Source: Tetraselmis striata (taxonomy: Eukaryota > Chlorophyta > Chlorodendrophyceae > Chlorodendrales > Chlorodendraceae). From it: a DNA stretch of 64,000 bases. This document shows positions 3,692 to 25,928 of the stretch, in pieces. Every line of letters begins with the position of its first letter. Position 1 is the stretch's first letter. Both the position numbers and the translations under genes were made by a program. The stretch covers positions 1-64,000 of the forward strand of contig VCJN01002277.1 in assembly GCA_006384855.1 (NCBI GenBank), written 5' to 3'. Under the pieces are notes generated by a model, which saw only the letters and a list, made by a program, of their open reading frames with translations, was not told where the DNA came from and did not search any database.

Positions 3692-5395
3692 TCAAAGTTG
3701 AGTCTGGTTTTGCCAGTCTTGAGCGAACGGAGAGAGCGGTGGATTGACGGAGAAGGGGTAGCGCCAAGTCATGAAGGAGGCACTGGGAAGGCCACCGCTG
3801 CGGAGTCCTGTTGGACTTGGAAGTGGCGGAGGGGGGCGATGCGTCCAAAGAAGAACCACGCGCCAGGGAGAAGGAAGAACGTTGGGGTCGATGTAGTCCA
3901 GAACGACATCAGAGTTAGTGGCCCAACCGACCTGGTAGCGGATGTGGGATAGTGGCGCTCCAATGGCGTTTGCTGCAGAGGCTGCGCCCTTGCGTAGACT
4001 GTGTGAAGTCCAGGAAGTGCCAGCAGGGGGGGCAGCGTTGACTAGGTTGACTGCTGTAGACAACCAGTCTGACATCGTAGTAGCAGTCCAAGGTTTCGAC
4101 TGCTCAGCCACATTGACAGCCCAGAAGTTGGAGGTAGCCAAGCCAACAGTAACCAGGGGGACAGACTGGACGTTGTCGATGAAGTAGCGCAAGAGACGTG
4201 CCACTCGAGGGTGCTCGGACACTGGAAGGAGAAGTACGCGAAGGTCGTCAGGTCCACGCCGGCCGGCGCGACCCTTCTCGCGGTAGATCTGCAAGGTGAT
4301 GTTGTAGGTGTCGACATGCACATCTTGCACTCGACAGGAGACGCCAGTAAGGCCCCTGGCAAAGAACAGGAAGTTGACAACCGAGGCCAAGAGGGCTCGG
4401 TAGTCGAGGTGGGACTCTGGGTAAGGAGCAGACACAATTAGCTCGGCCTTTGAGACGAAGCGGTAAGCTACATCCGCAGGCAGAGGGACACGCAAAGGGG
4501 CAGCGTCCAGTCGACGCTGACGTAACATTAACCCACGTCTTGCCGAAGTGAGGTGTAGGCTGTCCTTGGCGATCGGGACGAGGTTGTGCAGCTCGAAGAA
4601 GGTGTTGATGGCAGACAGATAGGGCTGCAGCGATTTAGCTGCGATATGCCCTCGCTCCCCGATCCAGGCAACGTACCGAACAACAGTAGCAGTAGTCGCC
4701 TCTAGCGGGCTGATGTTCTCGGAGTCGTGGCAGAACTCAGCGAACTGAGCCAACCTGCCGGCGTAGCTCTTGAGGGTCTGAGCGCTGAGGGAGCTGGAGA
4801 GCAGGTCGAGCGTCCGCAAGCCTAGCTCGTCTGAGCCGAACGCGTCCTGTAGTCGGGATCGCAGTGACGCAGCCCACGGAGCGATAGCTGCGGGCTCGTC
4901 GATTACGTAAGTGCGTCGTTTTACTGACAGAGTGCCACCGGGACGGCTACTGTTCGCAAAGTACTCGGCAGCAGCGGTTAGGTTCCCGGCGGTTGGCCGG
5001 TAGTTGCTGGACGGGTTTGCAGTAGCTCCAGTACGGGTTTGCGGGGCTAGGTTCAGGTAGGAGGGCCGCCCCGCGCGCCCTTCGCGCTCATAGCGCCTGT
5101 CCCGTGCGTAACGTACACGCGCGAAACTTGGTCGTTGCGAACCGGTTGTAACTCGTAGTGTAACAACCGACGAACGCAGAGATGGGGTTGTAAGAAAGGC
5201 GGATGGTTGAGCCGCCATGTGCATGTGTGCGGATGGTTGAGCCGCACTCGGCTGTAGCTGTAAGAAGCGCCGCACCGAGGAAGGTCTAAATGAAGTCTGT
5301 AAGGTGGGGGGGTCAGGTCCTGACACAGGGCGCTCATCCCGTCGTTGAGCTGCAAGGGTGCGCCTTGCGGCGGTCACCGAAAGGTGGCCTCGCAA
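3692..5395 (-). CDS. tyrosine recombinase of the DIRS-like element
   Basis: A frame of 567 codons. The C-terminal half is a tyrosine recombinase that would cut and rejoin element DNA at the AATG core. A SAM-like core-binding region (about residues 205-300, around TLKSYAGRLAQFAEFC) is followed by the catalytic domain. The catalytic domain shows the H-x-x-R box HSLRKG (His465, Arg468) and the nucleophile Tyr501 in VVLDYID. The first catalytic Arg is not confidently placed. The frame has no good ATG near its start. It is in the same frame as the upstream gag ORF, separated from it by one TGA and twelve codons, so it is probably made by readthrough. The C-terminus runs into repeat B1. The N-terminal 150 residues are low-complexity. 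Confidence 0.85.
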   Translation of the reverse strand: MRGHLSVTAARRTLAAQRRDERPVSGPDPPTLQTSFRPSSVRRFLQLQPSAAQPSAHMHMAAQPSAFLTTPSLRSSVVTLRVTTGSQRPSFARVRYARDRRYEREGRAGRPSYLNLAPQTRTGATANPSSNYRPTAGNLTAAAEYFANSSRPGGTLSVKRRTYVIDEPAAIAPWAASLRSRLQDAFGSDELGLRTLDLLSSSLSAQTLKSYAGRLAQFAEFCHDSENISPLEATTATVVRYVAWIGERGHIAAKSLQPYLSAINTFFELHNLVPIAKDSLHLTSARRGLMLRQRRLDAAPLRVPLPADVAYRFVSKAELIVSAPYPESHLDYRALLASVVNFLFFARGLTGVSCRVQDVHVDTYNITLQIYREKGRAGRRGPDDLRVLLLPVSEHPRVARLLRYFIDNVQSVPLVTVGLATSNFWAVNVAEQSKPWTATTMSDWLSTAVNLVNAAPPAGTSWTSHSLRKGAASAANAIGAPLSHIRYQVGWATNSDVVLDYIDPNVLPSPWRVVLLWTHRPPPPLPSPTGLRSGGLPSASFMTWRYPFSVNPPLSPFAQDWQNQTQL

Positions 5396-5431
5396 GGCTC
5401 CTGCAGCTCCGACGAACGGCGCCCCACACCG

Positions 5432-5434
5432 TCA
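5432..5434 (-). promoter_or_regulatory. in-frame TGA-CGG between gag and recombinase
   Basis: The gag frame ends GAG CAC GAG TGA, followed directly by CGG TGT GGG in the same frame, which stays open into the recombinase. UGA-CGG is a known leaky (type II) readthrough context. In the decayed copy near 34.43 kb the TGA is also present at the aligned place, followed by TGG. The readthrough itself is inferred, not shown. Confidence 0.55.
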
Positions 5435-6307
5435 CTCGTGCTCACCTTCGCGGCCACGTCCACGTCCGCCGCCGCGTCCTCGCCCACGCCCGCGACCTGC
5501 AGCTGCAGCCGCCACTCGAGAGGTAGCGGTCGCCTTGGCGCTGCTGGCAACGGTCGCCTCGAAAACACGACGCTCGTAGTCCCGCATGAGGTCCCCAAAG
5601 ATCGCGGAACCCAGATGCTCCGAAGCAGGCTGAAAATGCTGAGCTCGCAGCACATCCAGAACACCTTGGTCACCGTGCACACGCTTGATCTCATTGAGCT
5701 TCCGTAGGAAGGCCAAACGAAACCGAAACGCCTTGTCGATGGCCTCGGCGTGGTTCCGGGCTCTCGCGAGGTAGGGGGTGAAGTCCTGGTTGCTGGAAGG
5801 GACATAGGGCAGTAGCTCGTCGAGCGCCACGAAAAGGGCGGCCATGTGGGCCCCGAAACACGACATCCACAAGTACTCCTCCTGAGCCGGCAGACGCCGG
5901 TCATCCTGCTTGAGGTACTCGTTCGTTAGGTCGGTGCTCAAAGGGAAAAGTCCAGGCACTCGGCTGACCGGTCGAACGGCCTCGTAACCAGACTCTGCTC
6001 TCTGCAGTAGCTCTGGCACCGCGAGGTAATCATCCTCGGCACTCACGGATTTTGCTCCGACACGGCCGCTCTGGGCTAGCTCTAGCAAGTCGGGGCGCTC
6101 TGCGGCTCCCCCGCTGCCTGTCGGCTGTCTCGCGAAGCGCTGCCTTGAGCCGGAGCCATGTGCCCCTTCTCCATCGACAACGCGATCACGAGCCGTCAAT
6201 TGTGCCACAGCTGTAGCCAGCTCTCGCAGTAATGAAGACTGGGCCCTCATATCTGCGTTCAGCGACTGCAGCGTCGGCTCAGCGACGGGTTCTTCTCCAT
6301 CTGACAT
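5432..6307 (-). CDS. gag-like protein of the DIRS-like element
   Basis: A 291-residue ORF starting at the ATG at 6307 (MSDGEEP). The N-terminal part is acidic. The centre (about residues 80-250) is helical and includes the SCFGAHMAALFVALDELLPY stretch. The C-terminus ends in an RG/GRG-rich tail typical of RNA-binding Gag-like proteins. It probably packages element RNA. No zinc knuckle is seen. It lies directly upstream of the recombinase in the same frame. Degenerate pieces of the same ORF occur at 34.5-35.4 kb. There is no homology beyond position and composition to named Gag families, so the name is an inference. Confidence 0.65.
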   Translation of the reverse strand: MSDGEEPVAEPTLQSLNADMRAQSSLLRELATAVAQLTARDRVVDGEGAHGSGSRQRFARQPTGSGGAAERPDLLELAQSGRVGAKSVSAEDDYLAVPELLQRAESGYEAVRPVSRVPGLFPLSTDLTNEYLKQDDRRLPAQEEYLWMSCFGAHMAALFVALDELLPYVPSSNQDFTPYLARARNHAEAIDKAFRFRLAFLRKLNEIKRVHGDQGVLDVLRAQHFQPASEHLGSAIFGDLMRDYERRVFEATVASSAKATATSRVAAAAAGRGRGRGRGGGRGRGREGEHE

Positions 6308-6420
6308 AGTAACGTACGGACGTACGGACGAGAATATCACACTCGGGTGGCGAGCCGGGTGTGGTCTTGAACAACCTGGGGTGACCTTGCTCGCAACGGG
6401 TTACGAGACAGTTTTTACAT

Positions 6421-6608
6421 CGCTGCGTGGAACGCAGCGAAAACCGGAAGATGGCAGGCTCAGCTGTTCTGGCTGCTTTTATGTCTACTCGTGCTGCACC
6501 CAACAAGGGCGCAACAACAGTTACTAGTTCCCGTACCACTGCGCAGCACTTGTAGCTGAAAAGCGGTTAGGTCAAGGATGGAAACCCCATAAACTAGTTT
6601 AGATCATT
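6421..6608 (-). repeat. direct repeat A1 (188 bp, left terminus)
   Basis: The left terminus in the coding orientation, with 187 of 188 bases identical to 3504-3691. The outer end is AATGATCTAAACTAG on the minus strand. It probably carries the promoter of the element. Confidence 0.85.
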
Positions 6609-7358
6609 CATAGTTGTTAAAGCCCTGATGTAAAAAGACAAATCCATGTATAGTATACGGCGGATACTTGTACTGCGATGAGCGCATCCATACTAATTTT
6701 TTCCGCCCAGTTTTCCCCGGACAGGACTGGCAGTCGTCTTGCACCAGTCAAGCAACCATCCAGGCATCCAGCAGTCGTTAGTATTTCAACGAGTTTCCTA
6801 TAGTGTGGATCAAGGTTTGTAAAGGCTAGTGAGAATTGATGTCCTGCTTTAGGACCCCCCTTCTGATTTGCCCCCCCCCCCCCCCCACACACACACACAC
6901 ACAATTTAGCTGACCAATGTTCTGTGTGAAGCGCTGTTGTCAACACTGCTAGGGGGAAAGCCGCAATGGCTCCCATATTATGCAGCAGCATGGACCTGTG
7001 CATGAGGGAAAGTACATTATAGAGTATATTCACATGAACACCAATGCGAGCAACATTATAGAGTGGATACCACATAATTACAACAGTATTTCACAACATA
7101 TCACATGTGCTTGGTGGGCGCTTAACGTCTGGCTGCTGGACGGCTGGCTCGAACATGCGGTTCGCTCCTCGGCTGCCCATAGCCCGCCACTTGTTCTTCC
7201 GCCTTGACGGTGGTGGTAGTCCTCGTGCTCAACTATCACCACCGTCATGGAGTCTGCTAGCTCGAACAAAACTTGCGGTCTAGCTCTTTTGTCATGTACT
7301 CTAGCAGCTCGTTACACGTGTAGACCCGCAGCCACTCCCCACCTAGTGGATATAGCTT
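6609..7358. other. intergenic
   Basis: No gene was found. The stretch contains GTTAAAGCCCTGATGTAAAAA at 6615-6637, repeated at 11978-11999, and a C-run followed by a short CA repeat at 6869-6902. Open frames here do not resemble known proteins. Confidence 0.4.
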
Positions 7359-7702
7359 GGGCCTGCCCCCACCGGCTTGACGGCCCAGGTCATGCCCACC
7401 TTGACAGGGGGTTTCCTCGACATCTGCCATCTTGCCGGCGTTACGTAGCTACCTAGATGGGCCGGGTTGGTGACCTAGCCAGCAAGCGGCACCGGATGTG
7501 TGGGAGGCGGCAGAAAAGTGGCAGCGCCCCTGCAATAGCTGCCACAGCCGTCGCGATGTGACAGTGCGTGAGACGGTTACGGCCGGGAAGTAATGCTAAT
7601 GTACTAGCTACAACATTTTGGGTCGGCTATCATATTTTCTCATCACCCCCCCACCCCCTCTGATTTGAGCTAGATTTGGGCCCTAAAACGAGACATCAAT
7701 GC
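7359..7702. repeat. dispersed repeat, copy 2
   Basis: Diverged copy of the repeat at 1-372, in the same orientation, including GGGAAGTAATGCTAATGTAC and the terminal CTCTGATTTGAGC segment. Confidence 0.7.
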
Positions 7703-8565
7703 TCACTGTCCTAAGGATCAATCCTTACATTCCGTCTGCATTCCTACGAGAAATCATCCTTCGCCCTCCTACAAAAAACAAGCAACTATATCCCCGGCCC
7801 TCTTAATACGGCATGAGGCAGACGGCGGTGCGCTGGAACGCTCATGAAAGTATTCCGTAAAAGTGCGAATTCTGCTGGGCGATGTGAACGGGTACTTGTC
7901 CGAATTAGAAAAAGTATTGTAGTAATACAGATAACGATACACATTGGTGAGGTGTACTCTTACGGGCACGGGTTGTTTTCCTACATTAATAATAACACGG
8001 ACTGAGAAGCACATACGAGAAGCACAGCAGCAGCTGGGTTTCGCCTCACAGCGTCCTTTTACATCGGCCATCAATCCTTACATGTAGTGACGGAATGGTC
8101 GTTAGTGTTATTGCGCGAGTACGAAACGAGTAATTCGAACGAGTACGGCACGCAGCGCCAGCGCGTACAGGTAGCAATTGAAACCCTAAACCCGAAAATC
8201 CGCTATTCCCAATTTTAGTTCAGCAAGAATTATGTCGCGAGAGATATGCTTCTCTAGTTTTCTGCTCCAGCGCATGAGCGCACGGGTCCAGCTTTGGCGT
8301 GGAAGATGAAGGAAGCACCAGGATAGATTGTTAAATATGTCTACTGTCTGCCGAGCTAAAAATAGTAATCATCAAACATCTGCACCGAACAATGAGGAAT
8401 TGACGCTCTTTCTCACACCCCATGGCACTGTGTTGCAGTCATCATAGCGAATATGAGATCAGGTTAAGTATACGAGTTAATTCAGGGCAGTGTTGCTATG
8501 TTTATGTATCAACTGAGAGAGCCCCTTTCCTGTGGCCATTACGTATCTCTGGTTGACTGTGTCAG
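7703..8565. other. intergenic, possible upstream region of the PHD gene
   Basis: Positions 7765-7985 share blocks with 2780-3060. The remainder is AT-rich with no gene recognised. A first exon of the downstream PHD-finger gene may lie at about 8.45-8.55 kb (ATG at 8498), but this could not be confirmed. Confidence 0.35.
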
Positions 8566-15915: not shown

Positions 15916-17403
15916 ATGCGACTCTTCCCGTGTGGCACCTCGGCCTTCGCCGCTTGCACCGTGGCGTCCGTATTCATGTTTCTTCCCTGGCTGTGGGCAG
16001 ATCCAGTGCCAATCTGTGTACTGATCTCAGACTCTGGCGACGGCACAGCCCTGCTTCCTCGGACAGACTTCGCTCCCGAGTTGTTGACAGCTGTTCGAGC
16101 GATGCGCGAAATCAATGAAGGAAATTGCCCGTCTCAGTTTCTCGACCCGGAGGGTTGCCGACGGTTCCTCCTACAAGGTGCCCCCCCCCCCCCCCCCCCC
16201 ACCCACCCTCACCCTGCTTTCCTTCCTTTCTCCGCGGCATAGGTGCATCGCTCTCGCCTGCCGGCGTGGGCACAACCCGCGTCAGATCGTGGCACCACAG
16301 CCCGTCCCCCGGCGCGGCGCGGCCGCGTTGAGCTAGCCGGACCACTCCCGGCTATGTACGAGCAGGTTGCGGTACTACTGGACTACTGGTTTGAACTATT
16401 GGTTTGGACTACTGATACTGGTACTGTACTGCTATCCGATGGATGCGGGCCGCTTTTAGGCGGCTTGCTGTGTTGATTTTTTAGTACTACCTTTAGCAGT
16501 GGGTGGATTTGTTACTGATGCCCTTTTTGTAATTCACACCAGTACTGCTATCCTGCTGCTACGCGGTAGTAGTAGTACTCGTGGCACGCACTTATCAAGC
16601 ATCAGCATCATATAAAATATCACACCGGTTCGCGTAGGTACTCGTTTCTGAAGACCGTAAACGGGTCTCAAATCCGAGATGTGTAGCTGGCAACGCTTTT
16701 TGGCTACGTGGCACGCGCTACGTGCGTAATATTAGCACGTGACCGCTCGCGCTCCTCCCTCATCATCCCGCCGCCAGCCCCATCCCTGCCCGCGACACAC
16801 AAGACGAGGCACAAGAACGCCACCATATGCCTACATTAGCGCGCTGCTACCGCGGCATGCGCGTGATGTTGCCGGCCGGTGTGTTCGATTGGCATCGGGG
16901 GGGCGGGATGGGTTGGCGAGACGGGTGGTCACGTGGGCTCTGAGTTTTCATCAAATGACGTTATATTTGACTGTATCAACCGGATACTAATCACTATTCG
17001 CACTCGTTTCGGTAGTTGCATCTCAGGATTGTGACCCCGCTATACACAGCTTAAACCCCTGGAGGATTTCATTTAGCGAGTACCCGGGGAACCGGTGTGA
17101 TTGTCACGCGAATATATTAATAACAAGTAGACCCTTGCAGTAAGCCCTGCAGGGGTGTGGAATCCAGGGAGCCGCAAGGATCAATCGTAGTAGTCGCTAC
17201 ATTGTACGGCCCCGCGTCCGCCGACCCGCCGGCCCGGGGCCCGGCGTCCGTCGACGCGGACGGGCGGCGAGGCGGACGGGCGACGGTTGCCCGGCGTCCT
17301 GTGTCGATTTACATAGTAATCTATGCGAAACCGTTCCGAAAGTCGGCGACGGACAGACGGACACTCTCACTGATAGACAGACTCACCTCGTAATTGATAT
17401 GGT

Positions 17404-17455
<52 letters not shown>

Positions 17456-20400
17456 AATATCCTACCATTTTTAATATATGTATTTAAAAATATTAGACAC
17501 ACGTAAAATAAATATATTGTTCCTGTAATTATGAAGTTACATGAGCTAGCTGCAAAAGGCGACGATCAGGAAATCACCCAAATTTTATATGGTAGGATAT
17601 ATTAATGGCAGTACCAGGCAGGACCCGTCGTAGCTACATGTAGCATCATTGCAGCAGCATATCAGCAGCAGTGCACTAGTGCACTACTCGTACTCGTACC
17701 AGGGGGAACCCCTGCTCGTACGGTACGTAAGGCGTGCAAATCGGATCACCACGGGGCGAACTTTACTTTACATTTACCACGGGGTCAAAACAGGTACATG
17801 GTACCGCCGAAAGTGCCGCGGACGAAATGGTCTTGATGTTTATTTTTATCTAGTCGCTTCTATTTTTAGTCAAATGGATTATGCCAGTTAGAAAAGATGA
17901 TCGGGTTAACTCCCCCCTCCCCCCCCCCCCCCCCCCCCCGGCAGATTTGACCCCCCCCCCCGAAGTCATGTTGCTGGGTCATATACTGTGTGAAGTACTG
18001 TATTCAGCACTGTCCATGGACACGGGGGGGCGGGGGGGGGGGGGGGGGGTGCCAGTTGTGCATGTGTGTGTGCATGTGTTTGTGTAGCATCAACATGCAT
18101 GTGCTGGGGTGCCAGCATCAATATGCATGTGCCAGTTGTGCATGTGTTTGTGCAGCATCAATATGCATGTGCTGGGGTGCCAGGAGCCGGCAGGTTGTTA
18201 TTTGCCGAAGATAAATCGTCAGAGCAATGGGTAAAGATCCTTGCATGGGCAGCTGCATGCCGCGAAATGGCGACGGCGGGTGCCGAGGCGCACGCGCACC
18301 AGACGCACGCCGTTGAGGCCGTCAATTACTGCCAACGTACTGAGTCCCCCGTACGCAATATTCCTGTTCATACTGTACACCTCCCCCGCCCGGATTTTGG
18401 CCGTCTTGGTAACCCGACAATCTTTTTTAGCTGGTCTTACCAGTCGCTGCTTGATGTTCAGACTTTCGTGCTACCTGTACGTGTACTTGTCTCGAACAGC
18501 ACCGCTACAGGGTACTGGTGTGAATTACAAAAAGGGTACTGGTACTGGCACCGGTAAGCTACGAGACTCGTCGAATCCGCAGGCGACGCAAGCGCAGATT
18601 CTTGGTGCCCGTACTATTTTTCAGTACCCATACGGCAGTTCCAGACCAATCCGCAGATATTTTCAGCGCATCGTCTGCGGTCCGGAACGGTACCCTGTAA
18701 GCGAAGTCCGTCCGCGCGGACGCACATTCTCGCGGAGCGCGCTGTGTATTTAATGTTAAAATACACCTGTATCGTTTAAAATTATACAGGTTTATTATTT
18801 GTCCACAATTAATGTAAATAATAAACCTATATTATTGTATTTTAAATCCTATTCCTATTTCTAAATCGTATTCTAATTCAGTTCCACCTCGCAGTGGCTG
18901 TAGGTACTTGTAGTGGACGTTTCCTCTTGCCTTTTCGCGTGATCTCCTGATCGCCTTTTGCAGCTAGCTCATGTAATTAGTCGCTATATACTTCCAAATC
19001 AGTGAGAATACGCCAGCTATTACATGAGCTAGCAGCAGAAGGTGATATCAGGAAATCACAAAAAAACTCAGCTATTAATTTGTCCAGTTACACGGTCCGT
19101 GCACTACCGAGTACTGGTGTAAAGAGTATCCCTATACTGGTGTGAATTACAAGACTATCCCTGTATACTGGTACCGCGTGCGGGTAGCCACCAAAGCCAA
19201 GCGCCAAGTGGCTTCAGGTAGCGACGAACTACCCGTACTACTGTGCGGGGTAACCAAAATAATAGTAATATATTTTAAAACATAAATATCCGCGCGTTGG
19301 AGCCCCCTTGGAGCCCCGCCGGACGTCGGACATGCGGATCCATAGATCGGCGCGCGCCGGGCAGCATTATCATGCAGCGCAGACGAGGCGAACGTTTTGC
19401 ACGTACGAGTACTCGTACCCGTACGCGATATCTGCGCGTCGTCTGCGGACGCGCGCCGACTGTACTACCGGTACAGGTACCTGTAGCCTATGAGCGGGAT
19501 GAGTAAGGACCTTACCCGTAGCCACTAATACCCCGCAAATTAATTGTAATTAATTGTAATTAAAAATTACTAATACCCCGCAACGCGTGGAGAGATACTA
19601 CTCACTTGCAAGTCACCGCGAGGAGAAAGTACCCGTACTCACCCACACCTGCACGCGCGCCAGTGCTATCACAACACACTGGGGACATACCCGTGGCTAA
19701 CAGTTCTAGGACACAGAGTGTTACTCATAGCGGCGATCTTGGGCCTGTCTCGAACGCAAACTTGAAGACCGTGGTAGCACAACAAGAATCCTGCAGACGG
19801 CAGCGAATGAAGGAGCTGGGGGCATGGGTGGGCCGCTGGGTGGGGTGGCAAATGATGGAACTCCAGGGCACAGGCGGAAGGCACTCGAGCGGTAATTCGG
19901 CCGCGCATCGGACGCATTCGACCGCGTATGCTGCAGATTCTAGCGAAAGGGAGTGGGGGTGCAGCACCGCTCCACATTGTCCTACACCGACGTTGCGATG
20001 TGCGGTGCACGGCAAAGAGAACATGCTTAGCGGGCGGTGGAACGAAACGCCGGGAAAGAAAGCCGGGGGATGTACCTAGGGACGTAGTGGGCTTTGACAA
20101 GTCGGCTGCGAATTGGACGCATTCGACCGTACATGCTGCAGGGTGAAAGCGAGAGGGAGTGGGCGTGCAGCACCGCTCCACACAGTCCGATACCGACGTT
20201 GCTACACCTTGGGCTTTCGGGGGGGGGGGGGGGGGGGGGGGGGGTTGAAGAGGGTGTGGGCTGAAGGAACCGGCTTGAAATAAAACCTGAAAAAAACAGT
20301 GCTTAATTGCTGCTAATTGCTTCTTTTCGCCCGTACGCTTGATGTGCGCTGCGCAGGGGATGGCGGTAACGCCGGGCTCAGCATCATTGGTGTGTGGGAG

Positions 20401-23400
20401 CTGCCCAGCGGCAGCAGTGGGATGGCAGCAATTCTTGCAACTCGAGAGTGCCATGCAGGAGGCGGATTGGCAATGATTGGACCTGCAGGAGCAGAGCATG
20501 CTGTTGCAACATCGTGGATGGCAAAATCCCTGGGTATTTCCTGCCATTTCAACCTGTTGATACATATATCCATACATTTGCATGCTGTTGACGATTGCAC
20601 TGTCAATGGCTGTGTGAGTGTTTCCATTGACGCATGTCGCTTTTTTTGTCAGCAGAATGAATAGTGCGTCTGCAATAAAGCAGGTTTTGCTTCAGCGGCA
20701 TTGAACTCTGATATTGCCTCACCACATTGTTGAGACTAACAGTATCCATGCCATACTGCAGATATGCCAGTCGTTGGGTACACTGCCACTGATCTTCAGA
20801 TGCTACCTTCAGAGACTGAGGTACTCCTAGTCATTGTGATAATGCGTTTAGAGGCAATCAATGTCACCTGTGTTAATTACGTTTTTGACTCATGGCGCTG
20901 TATCTGACAGCCTGTGCTGTGCTCCAATTCTGGTCCACCGGAGGATGTCCAGGGATATGTACGGATGGCGGTGTCGGACAATCAGCGCGGGATGGCTCTT
21001 GTGCACTTCATACAATCATTCAAATGGGAACAGGTTTGAGGCCACTGCCGTTCCTGCTTGGGATTCTGATGCAGTGACTGCATAGCTGACTCAGTCGCAA
21101 CGTTTGTCGGTGGATGTTGATTGTCACATAATGTCATAGGCACACATCCTGCTGCTACAGTGACTACAGCTCCGCTGAGCCATTATATACCTCACCCTCC
21201 TGCCCACATATAGACTGACATTGTGGTGGCTGCGGCTCTGCCATTAGGCGGTCCTGGTGCACAGCCGAGACAAGTTTGGGAGCGGCATGGCGGAGGTGAG
21301 TACTGGCAGCTGTCCATGTACTACGTGCTTGCCAAGTCTCTGGTCCAGCTACTGAATTGGGGTGAGCTCAAGGTGTGTGTGTGTGTTGGGGGGGGGGGGG
21401 GGGGGGGGTCACCTGTGCAACATGCCACTTAAGTCCCAGTTAGCAATGATTGATATTGAATAATGTCTGACTTCTCCTCGGAAATGCATTCATTGTCAGA
21501 CCAGCCCATGCGCGAGCCTGACACACACATGAATATGTTACACAGTGCCGCATGCTCAACTAGCTGTGTCTGCCCCCACCCGCTGATGCTGCAGGCGCTC
21601 CAATCCCACGCGTCTGCGCTTGGCGTGCGGCTCGTATCCTATTCAGTGCCAGCCTCCCCTACAAGGCAGGCATTGGCAGATGTCGCTGCGCAGGTTGGGT
21701 CGGAAAGAAGCCGGGTGCGCCCCCGCCCTGCCCTGCGTGACGCAATCCGCACCCCCGTGCGCTAATCCCTCGTCAGCGCCGTCCGTCTGCCTCTGCTGCT
21801 ATATGTTATGCGGTGGGTCAGTGAACTGGTAAGCCAGGGCAGCCCCCTCAGTGGAGGCATGGCTCCCTCATGCGGATCTGCAATCTGCGCTGAGATCCTT
21901 GATGCCCGTGACCTCCCGCAGGTGGTGCTCCTGGCATTGACGCAGCAGCCGCTCCTGGAGTTCCTCCTGGAGTTTGACACCCAGGGTCTGGATGTGACCC
22001 AGAGAGTATGGCTCTCGGGGTGGCCATACCTGGAATGTGTGGCTGAGGCTGTGGAGCTTCTGCCTCCCGAGCGCCAGGCCGATGGTTTTCGTGTTCTCCA
22101 TGGGCTGGTTGCGGCCAGGGAGTGGGAGACGGACAACCTCACAGAGTGGCAGGATGTGAGCGCACCTACCCCACGCTTCATGGCTGAATCATGCCGGGTG
22201 ATGGTGTCCCGGACCCCAGCGGATCATGCTCACCCTGTGCCGTGCAATGCTGCAGGAACCGCGCGACCCAGAGCTTGAGATGGAGCTGCTGCTGCTTCAG
22301 CGCGGTATCAGTACCACAGGGAATTCAGGCGCCGTGCAAGTGAGGTCCAGCAGTTTCATCAACAACAGCATGGAGAAGATGTACAACTCCGTCTGGACCA
22401 TGGCCTTTGGCCTGGCCGCGGCAACCCGTGCCAACGCAACTGCGCGGCCCTCCGCTGCCACATTTACGGCGCAGCTGCTGGCAGGAGGGGAGGGGGCTCA
22501 GGAGCAGGGTGAGTGGCTGGGTCAATGGGACGCCCAAGGCAACATCAAGTCCTCGCGCATCACCATTGGCATCTTCAACTACCAGTCGCCGCTCGATGGC
22601 ACGGCTGGCAGCGCAGGCCCGGGCGTGGTCAAGAGAGTCGCCAGCTGGAACCTGCAGTCCAGGCCATCGGAGACCGCCGGCCTTCAGTGGCCCGACGGCT
22701 CGGCCTACCCTCAGGTACGTGTGCCCATGCGCCTTCATGTCGGAGCAACCCCCCCCCCCCCCCCCCCCAGCGACCGCTGTACGTGCCATGGCATGTATCG
22801 ATCACACTGTCCGTTGGCGCCCCCTACTCACCCAGCGAGTGGCTGGTACCCAGGTCCCCTCCGCACAGCTCGCGGATGCCAAACCTCCGCCCAGTGTATC
22901 TACAGCCCTCGTGGCCGCCACGAGCGTGCTTGCCGTGCTGCTGCTGCTCGCCGCCCTGCTCCCGGCCATCATGTGGGTGAGGGCGCGGCAGGGCGGCCGC
23001 AAGCCGCGGAAGAGCGCCCTGAAGAGCGGCATGGCATCCGATGGCGGCACGAGCAGCCGGCGCGTGCAGATACTGGAGCAGTCGTCGCTGTCATCCAGCG
23101 ACTGCGGGCAGGTGGGTGGCGCTCCTGTGCGCGCCGTCTCTGCATGCCAGGTTCCTGGGCAGTGTCGCCCTGATGACATCCCACGAAAAGGCCATTGCCC
23201 ATGCTGCATATATGTTGGCGTTATTAGCGGTGTGCCAGCTCGGACAAGCTCTTGGACACGGTGTTCAGCATGTAGATGAGCGTGATATCCCGAGGGCTGA
23301 ATCCCTCCCCTGCCTGCGTGCGGCAGGTCTCAGCCGGCGATGCGCAGAATCTGTCCGTGTCCTCAAGCGCTCCTTCTGAATCAGAGATTATGAAGTTCCT

Positions 23401-25928
23401 GGGCCGATTCGATTCCGACGCGGTGCGGAGCCAGGATGGCGCAGCCAGGAACGGCCTGGTGAATAAAAGCTTCCTGCAGAACCTCAGCATTCTGCAGGAG
23501 GAGAAGGTGCGCAGCATTGGGCGCCGGGCGAGTGACGACCGCTCCAGCGCCCGCACGGAGCTCGACCAGCACCGCCACAAGGACGCGATGGGGTCCGACG
23601 TGGTGCAGTACCTCATCGGCATCTGCGACCCGGACGACAGGGTTGCGCAACGCGCCTCTGTGGACCTGATCAGCGCAGCTGCGCTGGATTGCCGCAGCCT
23701 CGACATACCAACACCGGAAATCGGCCAGGCGATTTGCTGCGATCTTGAGCTGGAGGACATTGCAGAGGGGGTGGAGTCGATGTCGGCGTTGCCCGTGTCT
23801 GCCCTGGAGGAAGGCGACGCCGAGGAGCGGAACGCACACGCGGCGCGCAAAATCTCGCCCGTGATGCAGTCGCATCCGGACCTGTTTGCAGAGTCTTCTA
23901 CATCCCGGCCGCCTGCCGCTCCCCACGGCTCAGCGGCCGCTGCCGTGCTTCCCGGGGCGGTGCCGTCGGGAGGCCGACACAAATTGTGCCAGGGCGCCGG
24001 GGCTCGCCAGGGCAGCCTGGAGCACAGCGGCATCACCGTGCCACCGCGGCTGGCGCACCGCCTGGCGCGCGAGTTTGACCTGGACATGGTCACTGCACAG
24101 AGCCCGCTGAACGAGTGCCAGTCGCCACTGGCCGTCATCATGCAGCAGTGCGTGGAGCTCTTCGACCTGCGCTCGCACCTTCTGATCAGCCGCAAGAACG
24201 TGAACCGGCTCACGGCGTTTGCGACCCGCCTGGAGGCCGGCTACGAGGACGGGGGGTACCACTGCAAGCGGCACGCCGCGGACGTGACCAACCGCTTTGC
24301 GGCCATCCTGCACCGGACCGACTTTGCGAGCAACCTCAGCGCGTACGACACGCTCGCGGCGCTGGTGGCGGCCGCCCTGCACGACTACAAGCACCCGCAG
24401 GTCACCAACCAGTACCTCATCCTGCAGGAGCACGAGATCGCGGAAGCCTTCGTCGACCAGTCGCCCGCGGAGATGTACAGCTTGCGCTGCGCGCTGAGCA
24501 TGATGCGCCACGAGGAGGGGCTCAACTTCCTGGAGGACGTGTGGCAGAAGAACGGGGCGCTCTACCGCCAGAAGTTCCGGTTCCAGGTCGCCGAGATCGT
24601 GCTCGGCACCGACATGAAGAAGCACTTCCAGGTGCTGAAGCACTTCCGGCACGACGTCCTCCAGAACGAGCGGCTGGCGGGGATGGCGGGCGCCAGCAGC
24701 GGCGAGCTCTGGAGCGCGATGGACGACCCGCAGCGCATGCTCAGCCTGCAGGTCGCGCTCAAGGTGGCGGACATCGGGCACTGCGCGCTCCCGCTGGACC
24801 AGCACACCGAGTGGCTGCAGAAGCTTGAGAACGAAATGTTCAAGCAGGTGCGGCCCTGCCTGGCTGCTGCACCGGCTGGGCGCGACGCTGCTCGTTGCCA
24901 CCTGCCCGCCACTGGCACGCTCGCTCGCTCGCTCGTTTTTGCGTGCGCCCTCGCCAGAAACGCATCACCCGAACCCCTCCTTACCCCGGATCGTGCATGC
25001 TACCGCTGACTCACTTGTACCGTCTCGTGGCGAGGGGCCTGCAACTTGAGCGGGCTCTCGCGCATGCATGCACACGTGTCATGCAGCCTGCTGAGGAATT
25101 AAATGTTTTTTGATGGCGCATCACCCACAGGGCGACTCGGAGCGGCACGTGGGGCTTCCCGTGTCGCCCCTGATGGACCGCCGCCGCAGCGGGTAGAGAC
25201 TGCACCCCACCCCCCGTGCCCGATTGTCAACTCTGCCGTCCCTGCCACCCGCGCCATCTCCCTTAGCTCACTGACGCCGGACCCCCCCCCCCCCCCCCTC
25301 CCCCGGGCCCTACCCACCCACCAGCGTCACCTCCGCCAAGAGCCAGGTCGGCTTTTTCGACGTCATCGTGCTGCCGCTGCTGACCGACTTCGTCAGCATG
25401 TTCCCCGAGTGCAAGCCGCTGCTGGACCAGGTGACCCCCCCCCCCCCCCCCCCTTGCCCAATATCCTTTCTCCATCTGCTCCACCTTGTCGCATGGCCGC
25501 AGCCATCGCCGGCCGCACCAGTAGACGGAAAGGCTGACCGCGGTGGGTCGCCCTGCATTGCGCGCCCTCAGGCCTCCGCCAACCGCAAGTACTGGGCCCG
25601 GGTCTCCAAGCTGGAGCGCCCGAGCACGGACGCCCGGCCCAGCACGACCGTGTCGATGAGGGCGATCCCTAGCAGCCTCGTATCAGCCAGCGGCGACGAC
25701 CGCGACATGGACGGCACGGCGTCGGACGGCGCATCGGACGGCGCAATGACGGCGCCGCGCCTGGGGGACCCCAAGGGCCGGAAAAACATGGCATTCCGGA
25801 GCATGTCGATGGCTCCGACGCGCAGCGCGCTCCCGGAGCTCGGAAGCTCCGGCAGCTGGGAACGGCGAGGCACCTGGAGCGCTGTCCCTCCTGGAGCTGC
25901 TCGCCTTCCCGCTAAGAGGGACACCTGA
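15916..25928 (+). CDS. receptor-like cyclic-nucleotide phosphodiesterase (ligand-binding domain, one TM helix, PDE)
   Basis: Thirteen exons close in phase and give 1249 residues: 15916-16177, 20357-20533, 20762-20820, 20953-21033, 21248-21295, 21595-21693, 21895-22155, 22256-22714, 22854-23111, 23327-24847, 25131-25192, 25325-25430, 25572-25928. Residues 1-30 form a signal peptide. Residues 31-480 resemble the receptor-family ligand-binding (periplasmic-binding type I) fold, e.g. LAMIGPAGAEHAVATSWMAK, MPVVGYTATD and AVLVHSRDKFGSG. Residues about 500-527 are a single membrane helix. Residues 810-1160 are a class I 3',5'-cyclic-nucleotide phosphodiesterase. It has YHCKRHAADV (His880, His884), ALHDYKHP (His920, Asp921), VLGTDMKKHF and KVADIG (Asp1050), so the metal ligands are intact. 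It would sit in the plasma or ciliary membrane and hydrolyse cAMP or cGMP under ligand control. cAMP versus cGMP preference is not readable. The weakest junctions are intron 1 (4.2 kb) and the 21895 acceptor. Confidence 0.85.
17407..17452. repeat. (AT)n microsatellite
   Basis: Uninterrupted AT dinucleotides over about 46 bases, directly left of the small MITE at 17457. Confidence 0.95.
17457..17600. mobile_element. 144-bp MITE-like element
   Basis: The ends ATATCCTACCAT and ATGGTAGGATAT are perfect inverted repeats of 12 bases. The interior carries TTACATGAGCTAGCTGCAAA and AGGAAATCACCC, which recur at 27906-27950 and form the arms of the foldback at 18939-19060. Confidence 0.6.
17881..18190. 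repeat. C/G homopolymers and a GCATGTG minisatellite
   Basis: C-runs at about 17925-17960 and a G-run at 18026-18048 precede irregular tandem units built from GTGCCAGTTGTGCATGTG and CAGCATCAATATGCATGTGC (18050-18182). The frame is open in places but repetitive and non-coding in character. Confidence 0.6.
18939..19060. repeat. foldback with 40-base arms
   Basis: Positions 18939-18978 (GTGATCTCCTGATCGCC to CATGTAAT) are the near-perfect inverse of 19019-19060 (ATTACATGAGCTAGC to GGAAATCAC), with a loop of about 40 bases. The arm sequence is shared with the MITE at 17457-17600. Confidence 0.65.

Follow-up and report, generated by a model that had tools for sequence, protein, structure and literature searches.

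Introduction

Proteins in which a ligand receptor is fused to an enzyme that makes cyclic nucleotides are well known. In animal receptor guanylyl cyclases of the natriuretic-peptide receptor type, an ANF_receptor ectodomain and a single membrane helix are followed by a cyclic-nucleotide enzyme inside the cell. With regard to cyclic nucleotide breakdown, Rh-PDE is reported to be a protein whose membrane sensor is connected through a linker with a phosphodiesterase (PDE) that hydrolyses cyclic adenosine and guanosine monophosphate (cAMP and cGMP), with a light dependence of about 2-fold (PMC7644710), a precedent indicating that a membrane sensor can drive a class I PDE through a linker. Here, a gene from the green alga Tetraselmis striata was analyzed, located at positions 15916-25928 (plus strand) of a window comprising the first 64,000 nucleotides of contig VCJN01002277.1 (assembly GCA_006384855.1; contig C1836 below). 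Its product is probably a single-pass receptor phosphodiesterase, in which a ligand would alter the rate of the PDE through the membrane.

Gene structure and domain organization

The gene consists of 13 exons running from an ATG at 15916 to a TGA ending at 25928, with in-frame joints and GT-AG introns throughout, confirming the phase closure claimed in the original prediction; the spliced product has 1250 amino acids, instead of the 1249 first given. The start of exon 4 (20944) and the end of exon 6 (21714) were taken from P0001, a T. striata protein from JGI/EukProt (jgi/Tetstr1 TSEL_004029.t2) that covers 87% of the query at 98% identity and in which both domains are joined. Since the N-terminus of P0001 falls within exon 3, exons 1 and 2 are absent from it and rest on a second genomic copy (contig C251, see below), on homology to proteins P0003, P0007 and P0010 and, for exon 2, on Pfam. 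An alternative AG ahead of 20911 would add 11 residues to exon 4. The exons (all on the plus strand) are as follows:

Exon 1, 15916..16177, plus: start codon, signal-like hydrophobic segment (residues 8-26) and first part of the periplasmic-binding fold; GT donor, phase 1; in the C251 copy no insertion or deletion and 3 base differences; 31% identity to the paralogue exon 1 over 54 codons.
Exon 2, 20357..20533, plus: ectodomain; AG/GT borders, phase closes; partly within the ANF_receptor match that begins at residue 113.
Exon 3, 20762..20820, plus: ectodomain; contains the N-terminus of P0001; present in the C251 copy.
Exon 4, 20944..21033, plus: ectodomain; start as in P0001; no insertion called for by the family alignment.
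Exon 5, 21248..21295, plus: ectodomain; each of its two junctions coincides to the residue with one in the paralogue on C1825.
Exon 6, 21595..21714, plus: ectodomain; 3' border adopted from P0001; the paralogue shares its two junctions to the residue.
Exon 7, 21922..22155, plus: ectodomain; present in the C251 copy; 46% amino acid identity to the paralogue over 61 codons.
Exon 8, 22256..22714, plus: end of the ectodomain; present in the C251 copy; 43% amino acid identity to the paralogue over 105 codons.
Exon 9, 22854..23111, plus: encodes the membrane helix (residues 501-519, at about 22905-22961), followed by basic residues of stop-transfer type.
Exon 10, 23327..24847, plus: linker and most of PDEase_I (from 24257); genome family match at 24257-24850.
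Exon 11, 25131..25192, plus: PDE domain; present in the C251 copy; the paralogue lacks the intron between exons 10 and 11, its frame being continuous there.
Exon 12, 25325..25430, plus: end of the PDE domain with the glutamine motif SQVGF; 77% amino acid identity to the paralogue over 35 codons.
Exon 13, 25572..25928, plus: last part of the PDE-like tail, followed by a low-complexity C-terminus and the stop codon; 0 differences in 357 bases from the C251 copy.

Both domains foreseen by the original prediction were recovered above their curated cut-offs when the 1250-residue model was searched against Pfam: ANF_receptor at residues 113-390 (1e-20; 74.5 bits, cut-off 25.4) and PDEase_I at residues 880-1132 (2.9e-56; 191.3 bits, cut-off 24.8). 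Peripla_BP_6 scored just over its cut-off (33.7 and 31.7 bits, respectively), and the 4 families with a match at E values up to 1 included no guanylate cyclase, rhodopsin or seven-helix family. Topology and the signal-like start were judged from Kyte-Doolittle hydropathy, which gave a single strong membrane helix at residues 501-519 (score 2.75) and an N-terminal stretch at residues 8-26 barely over the threshold (1.61, threshold 1.6). A further hydrophobic stretch (1105-1123) was rejected as a membrane helix, since it sits within the PDE fold. The PDE was placed in the cytosol because arginines and lysines come after helix 501-519; the predicted order of a receptor-type ectodomain outside, one helix, and a PDE inside was thus borne out.

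The metal ligands of the PDE (H881, H885, H921, D922 and D1051) and the glutamine Q1104 were all present (residue numbers are P0001 alignment positions plus 159), as the original prediction had stated for the metal-binding residues. The alignment with PDE4D showed conservation of both YHxxxHAADV histidines, of the HD pair and the aspartate further on, and of the glutamine in SQVGF. Across the family described below, the H, HD and D ligands, as well as E792 and T838 (P0001 numbering), were invariant in 10 of 10 members, and the glutamine in all 8 members that extend that far.

Predicted structure and affinity of the ectodomain

The structural model of P0001 placed the PDE (residues 650-987) mostly at predicted local distance difference test scores (pLDDT) of 76-97, the scores being lower at 771-790, and gave fair values (76-89) for ectodomain residues 21-150. 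The membrane helix encoded by exon 9 appeared in this model as a helix at 339-370. Its top Foldseek match was PDE4B (template modeling score 0.84 by target length), the best 50 matches listed all being PDE4 chains. Among the Foldseek matches listed for the model of P0010 were PDE4, one PDE3 and class C G-protein-coupled receptor (GPCR) entries, the latter at very high root-mean-square deviation, and VIA-align returned PDE rows only among the matches listed.

When a profile built from three ectodomains was compared with solved structures, T1R3 was the best match (1.2e-22), followed by CaSR and mGlu, and no natriuretic-peptide receptor was found in the best 60 of 172 matches. The animal comparison drawn in the original prediction should accordingly move from receptors coupled to guanylate cyclase towards class C GPCR flytraps, to which the profile lies nearest within those best 60 matches. 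This affinity suggests a small, amino-acid-like ligand. Since, by reading of the alignments, paralogues differ at positions of ligand contact in mGlu receptors, the members of the family may bind different ligands.

Second copy and paralogues

The copy on contig C251, taken as an allele of the window gene, contains all 13 exons, with no insertions, deletions or early stops and with GT-AG borders at 12 of 12 introns. Intron 1 (16178-20356; 4.2 kb) contains repeats, and a 1.3-kb stretch within it (17501-18827) is inverted in the C251 copy relative to the window. Runs of about 15-20 C were also observed in introns near 16183, 22750, 25285 and 25437, often by splice sites, and in a paralogue (L027).

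A paralogue pair (C1825/C1968) showed the same succession of signal-like exon 1, ectodomain, helix and PDE, the PDE part being about 54% identical. The junctions between exons 4 and 5, 5 and 6, 6 and 7, and 12 and 13 fall at the identical residue in the window gene and the paralogue. The junction between exons 9 and 10, where helix and enzyme meet, lies at the corresponding place, within a stretch lacking residue-by-residue alignment; those between exons 7 and 8 (alignment unsure) and 11 and 12 were left out of this count. Relative to the paralogue, the codons of exons 1, 4, 7 and 8 had changed least at their second position and most at their third (usable exons were 1, 4, 7, 8, 10 and 12; exons 5, 6 and 13 were misaligned, and 2, 3 and 11 were left out).

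Family across the genome and other Tetraselmis

Matches to the ectodomain and the PDE, in the correct order and on one strand, were found on 13 contigs of the 224-Mb assembly (C1836, C251, C1825, C1968, C1502, C554, C1031, C436, C75, C2388, C1114, C1552 and C132), C132 being supported by a single stretch of ectodomain and a single, weak stretch of PDE. After pairing likely alleles, with exon-by-exon comparison for C1836/C251 only, these were taken as at least eight loci. The receptor-PDE of the original prediction is confirmed and belongs to a family, a wider finding than the one claimed there.

A protein search with the PDE part retrieved 108 proteins; as 7996 candidates were scored, the family size is a lower bound, and further lineages may have members. 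According to precomputed Pfam annotation, ANF_receptor occurred in 7 of the 108: P0001, P0003, P0007, P0008 and P0009 (Tetstr1), P0006 (source lgn) and P0010 (an MMETSP transcript marked complete). Looking beyond this gene, as the original prediction had proposed, yielded related transcript-derived proteins: P0010, with both parts in one chain (ANF 3.7e-22; PDE 9.2e-48), and P0004 from T. astigmatica, likewise in one chain (ANF 1.9e-4; PDE 3.8e-61). With 21.0 and 17.3 bits, respectively, the ANF matches of P0004 and P0005 did not reach the cut-off of Pfam. Searches with the whole protein and with the family profile returned 2 proteins and 1 protein, respectively, from about 8000 candidates each, and have little bearing on the spread of the ectodomain.

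In a tree of the PDE domain (108 of 109 proteins after a length filter), ten members formed one clade (support 100/99), namely all seven ANF_receptor-bearing proteins together with P0004, P0005 and P0011. The rows drawn as sister to it include P0015, likewise from Tetraselmis, a PDE whose large N-terminal part is of another kind. Because P0011 (Tetraselmis sp. GSL018), which gave no ANF match, sits inside the clade, the ANF label, which counts the below-cut-off P0004 and P0005, requires two changes on the tree and not one. As a control, 40 proteins chosen by hand from the 99 PDE proteins outside the clade (the 108 plus P0002, minus the ten) were scanned for other domains. In 36 PDEs outside the clade, no ANF_receptor or periplasmic-binding match was found among 25 of 29 families listed, and one weak CHASE match (0.0058) was recorded; P0012 to P0015 gave no ANF match up to an E value of 1.

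An N-terminal hydrophobic stretch above the threshold was seen in P0003 and P0006 as well as in the model of the window gene, and that of P0008 lies in a repeat. Residues 1-78 of P0008 recur on 32 other contigs, and residues 79-120 on some of those; the start of this protein is probably a mobile repeat joined by gene prediction.

A locus resembling receptor guanylyl cyclases

At another locus (L029; C1671:133500-143400, minus strand), matches to ANF_receptor, a kinase-like domain and guanylate cyclase follow one another in this order on one strand, at about 4003-8117, with a hydrophobic stretch between the ANF and kinase-like parts identified by reading. By reading, the catalytic motifs of the kinase look altered or lost, and the locus seems to represent the layout of an animal receptor guanylyl cyclase in a green alga. 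Alongside the receptor-PDE family, it suggests that ectodomains of the ANF kind are found on an enzyme that makes cyclic nucleotide as well as on one that breaks it down.

Other loci in the assembly and the window

ANF_receptor genes of another kind, whose downstream parts include cysteine-rich stretches and several hydrophobic ones, were observed at L030 (C1933) and L032 (C2622), the start of the latter recurring at L033 (C940). No PDE or cyclase match was present among those listed for the L030 and L032 contigs, and by reading these genes appear to be a separate receptor class. Long unbroken frames, with periplasmic-binding genes beside transporter-like frames, characterized L031 and L037 (C1610), L034 (C2280) and L036 (C1115), contigs that, by reading, appear to come from companion bacteria included in the assembly.

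Within the window, a 579-residue frame on the minus strand (3695-5431) carries a phage-integrase N-terminal SAM-like domain (6.5e-8) and may represent a mobile element of the tyrosine-recombinase type; Pfam gave no match for nine further long frames of the window.

Discussion

The gene structure, the domains, the helix by hydropathy, the intact catalytic residues and the layout common to the family were all read directly from the sequences, and a mechanism can be proposed on this basis. Outside the cell, a Venus-flytrap domain of the type I periplasmic-binding fold, probably in dimeric form, would bind a small molecule, most likely amino-acid-like; ligand would close the lobes of the flytrap and shift the dimer, and the membrane helix and a helical linker would relay this change to the cytosolic class I PDE, so that the rate of cAMP or cGMP hydrolysis would change, with either sign. 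We infer the dimer, the ligand class, the coupling through the membrane and the direction of the effect. The original prediction saw in a receptor that destroys the messenger an inversion of the usual logic; PDE activity could equally fall on ligand binding, in which case the logic is not inverted.

All of this presupposes a single gene. That two adjacent genes were misjoined by prediction might be supposed from the absence of exons 1 and 2 in P0001 and from the length and repeats of intron 1, yet the C251 copy, the ordered matches on 13 contigs, the corresponding joint of exons 9 and 10 in the paralogue and the one-chain P0010 and P0004 make this hardly credible, and both a misjoin and a chance closure of exons were rejected, in agreement with the original prediction. 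The two parts are kept together in the C251 copy, the paralogues, P0001 and the transcript-derived chains, and for this reason the locus is read as one gene. A weak or dead PDE, acting as a cyclic-nucleotide sensor or as the scaffold output of the receptor, would be in line with two departures from PDE4D: HC in place of HN beside the first histidine, in 10 of 10 members, and HPQ (HLQ in P0007) in place of HPG after the HD pair, with Q in 10 of 10. The second change would presumably disrupt the short class I PDE signature of PROSITE type. Given that the metal ligands, E792 and T838 never vary, that the glutamine is kept and that both Pfam and the fold match a PDE strongly, we regard such a loss of function as very improbable.

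More plausible, but still unlikely, is a membrane-anchored constitutive PDE, whose flytrap would serve in localisation, adhesion or nutrient capture and not in regulation. The linker is predicted with low confidence and is rich in low-complexity sequence, and, by our reading of the alignments, paralogues seem to differ at the ligand-contact positions of mGlu receptors; moreover, Rh-PDE is reported to be loosely coupled and to have high dark activity (PMC7644710). Against a constitutive enzyme, ectodomain, helix and PDE are kept together across a long-branched clade, and codon position 2 of the ectodomain changes least between paralogues (exons 1, 4, 7 and 8), as expected if the ectodomain matters.

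Several observations weigh against a ligand-regulated receptor phosphodiesterase, or against parts of the evidence for it. In the P0001 model the linker has pLDDT values below 50, so the coupling falls outside the model, and confidence is low for the model of P0010 (mean 53), so that the presumed two-lobed fold is covered in part at most. Owing to the HC and HPQ/HLQ departures, full PDE activity cannot be assumed. The C251 and C1836 copies differ in 11 codons (3 synonymous and 8 replacement; nonsynonymous and synonymous divergence, dN 0.0028 and dS 0.0033), too few for selection to be shown. No transcript of exactly this gene was among the proteins found, and the P0001 model may rest partly on prediction. 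Among the related proteins, the PDE match of P0010 extends no further than position 201 of 238, and the end of this protein reads as foreign sequence; P0004 is without the ectodomain start, in addition to its below-cut-off ANF match; and P0011 is without an ANF match, its PDE ending at position 184 of 238. The N-terminal stretch was under the threshold in P0004, P0005, P0007, P0009, P0010 and P0011, several of these models looking N-terminally cut.

As a tentative extension, about which we are more doubtful than confident, an expanded family of chemoreceptors that destroy cyclic nucleotide would stand opposite the receptor guanylyl cyclase, ligands pushing and pulling one pool without G proteins. 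If the coupling is true, a single protein would place the removal of cAMP or cGMP under chemical control, as rhodopsin-PDE does with light. It would also offer a way into the study of chemical sensing in algae, in the absence of the receptor sets of animals, and a possible scaffold for chemically controlled PDE tools.

No description of a receptor ectodomain paired with a PDE was found among the open-licence papers listed, judged by titles and the starts of abstracts. Receptor guanylyl cyclases make cGMP and have a kinase-homology domain, whereas the Tetraselmis protein has a PDE and no kinase-like part. In the class C GPCRs T1R3, CaSR and mGlu, whose solved ectodomains are the closest by profile (best 60 of 172), seven helices lead to a G-protein output, in contrast with one helix and an enzyme here. 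Bacterial phosphodiesterases of c-di-GMP (cyclic di-guanosine monophosphate) with periplasmic-binding sensors differ in their EAL or HD-GYP catalytic domain and in their substrate. The receptor-type adenylate cyclases of Trypanosoma are reported to have in common a Venus-flytrap, one helix and a cyclic-nucleotide enzyme in a flagellated protist, but most carry two flytrap domains and their output is a cyclase (PMC6027212). With Rh-PDE/RhoPDE of choanoflagellates, the Tetraselmis protein shares a membrane sensor joined to a PDE through a linker in one protein, the sensor being an 8-helix rhodopsin for light in the former and a single helix with an extracellular ligand-binding domain in the latter. 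The parts of the Tetraselmis protein are therefore known, their combination is precedented with light in the place of a ligand, and the pair is already present in public gene models.

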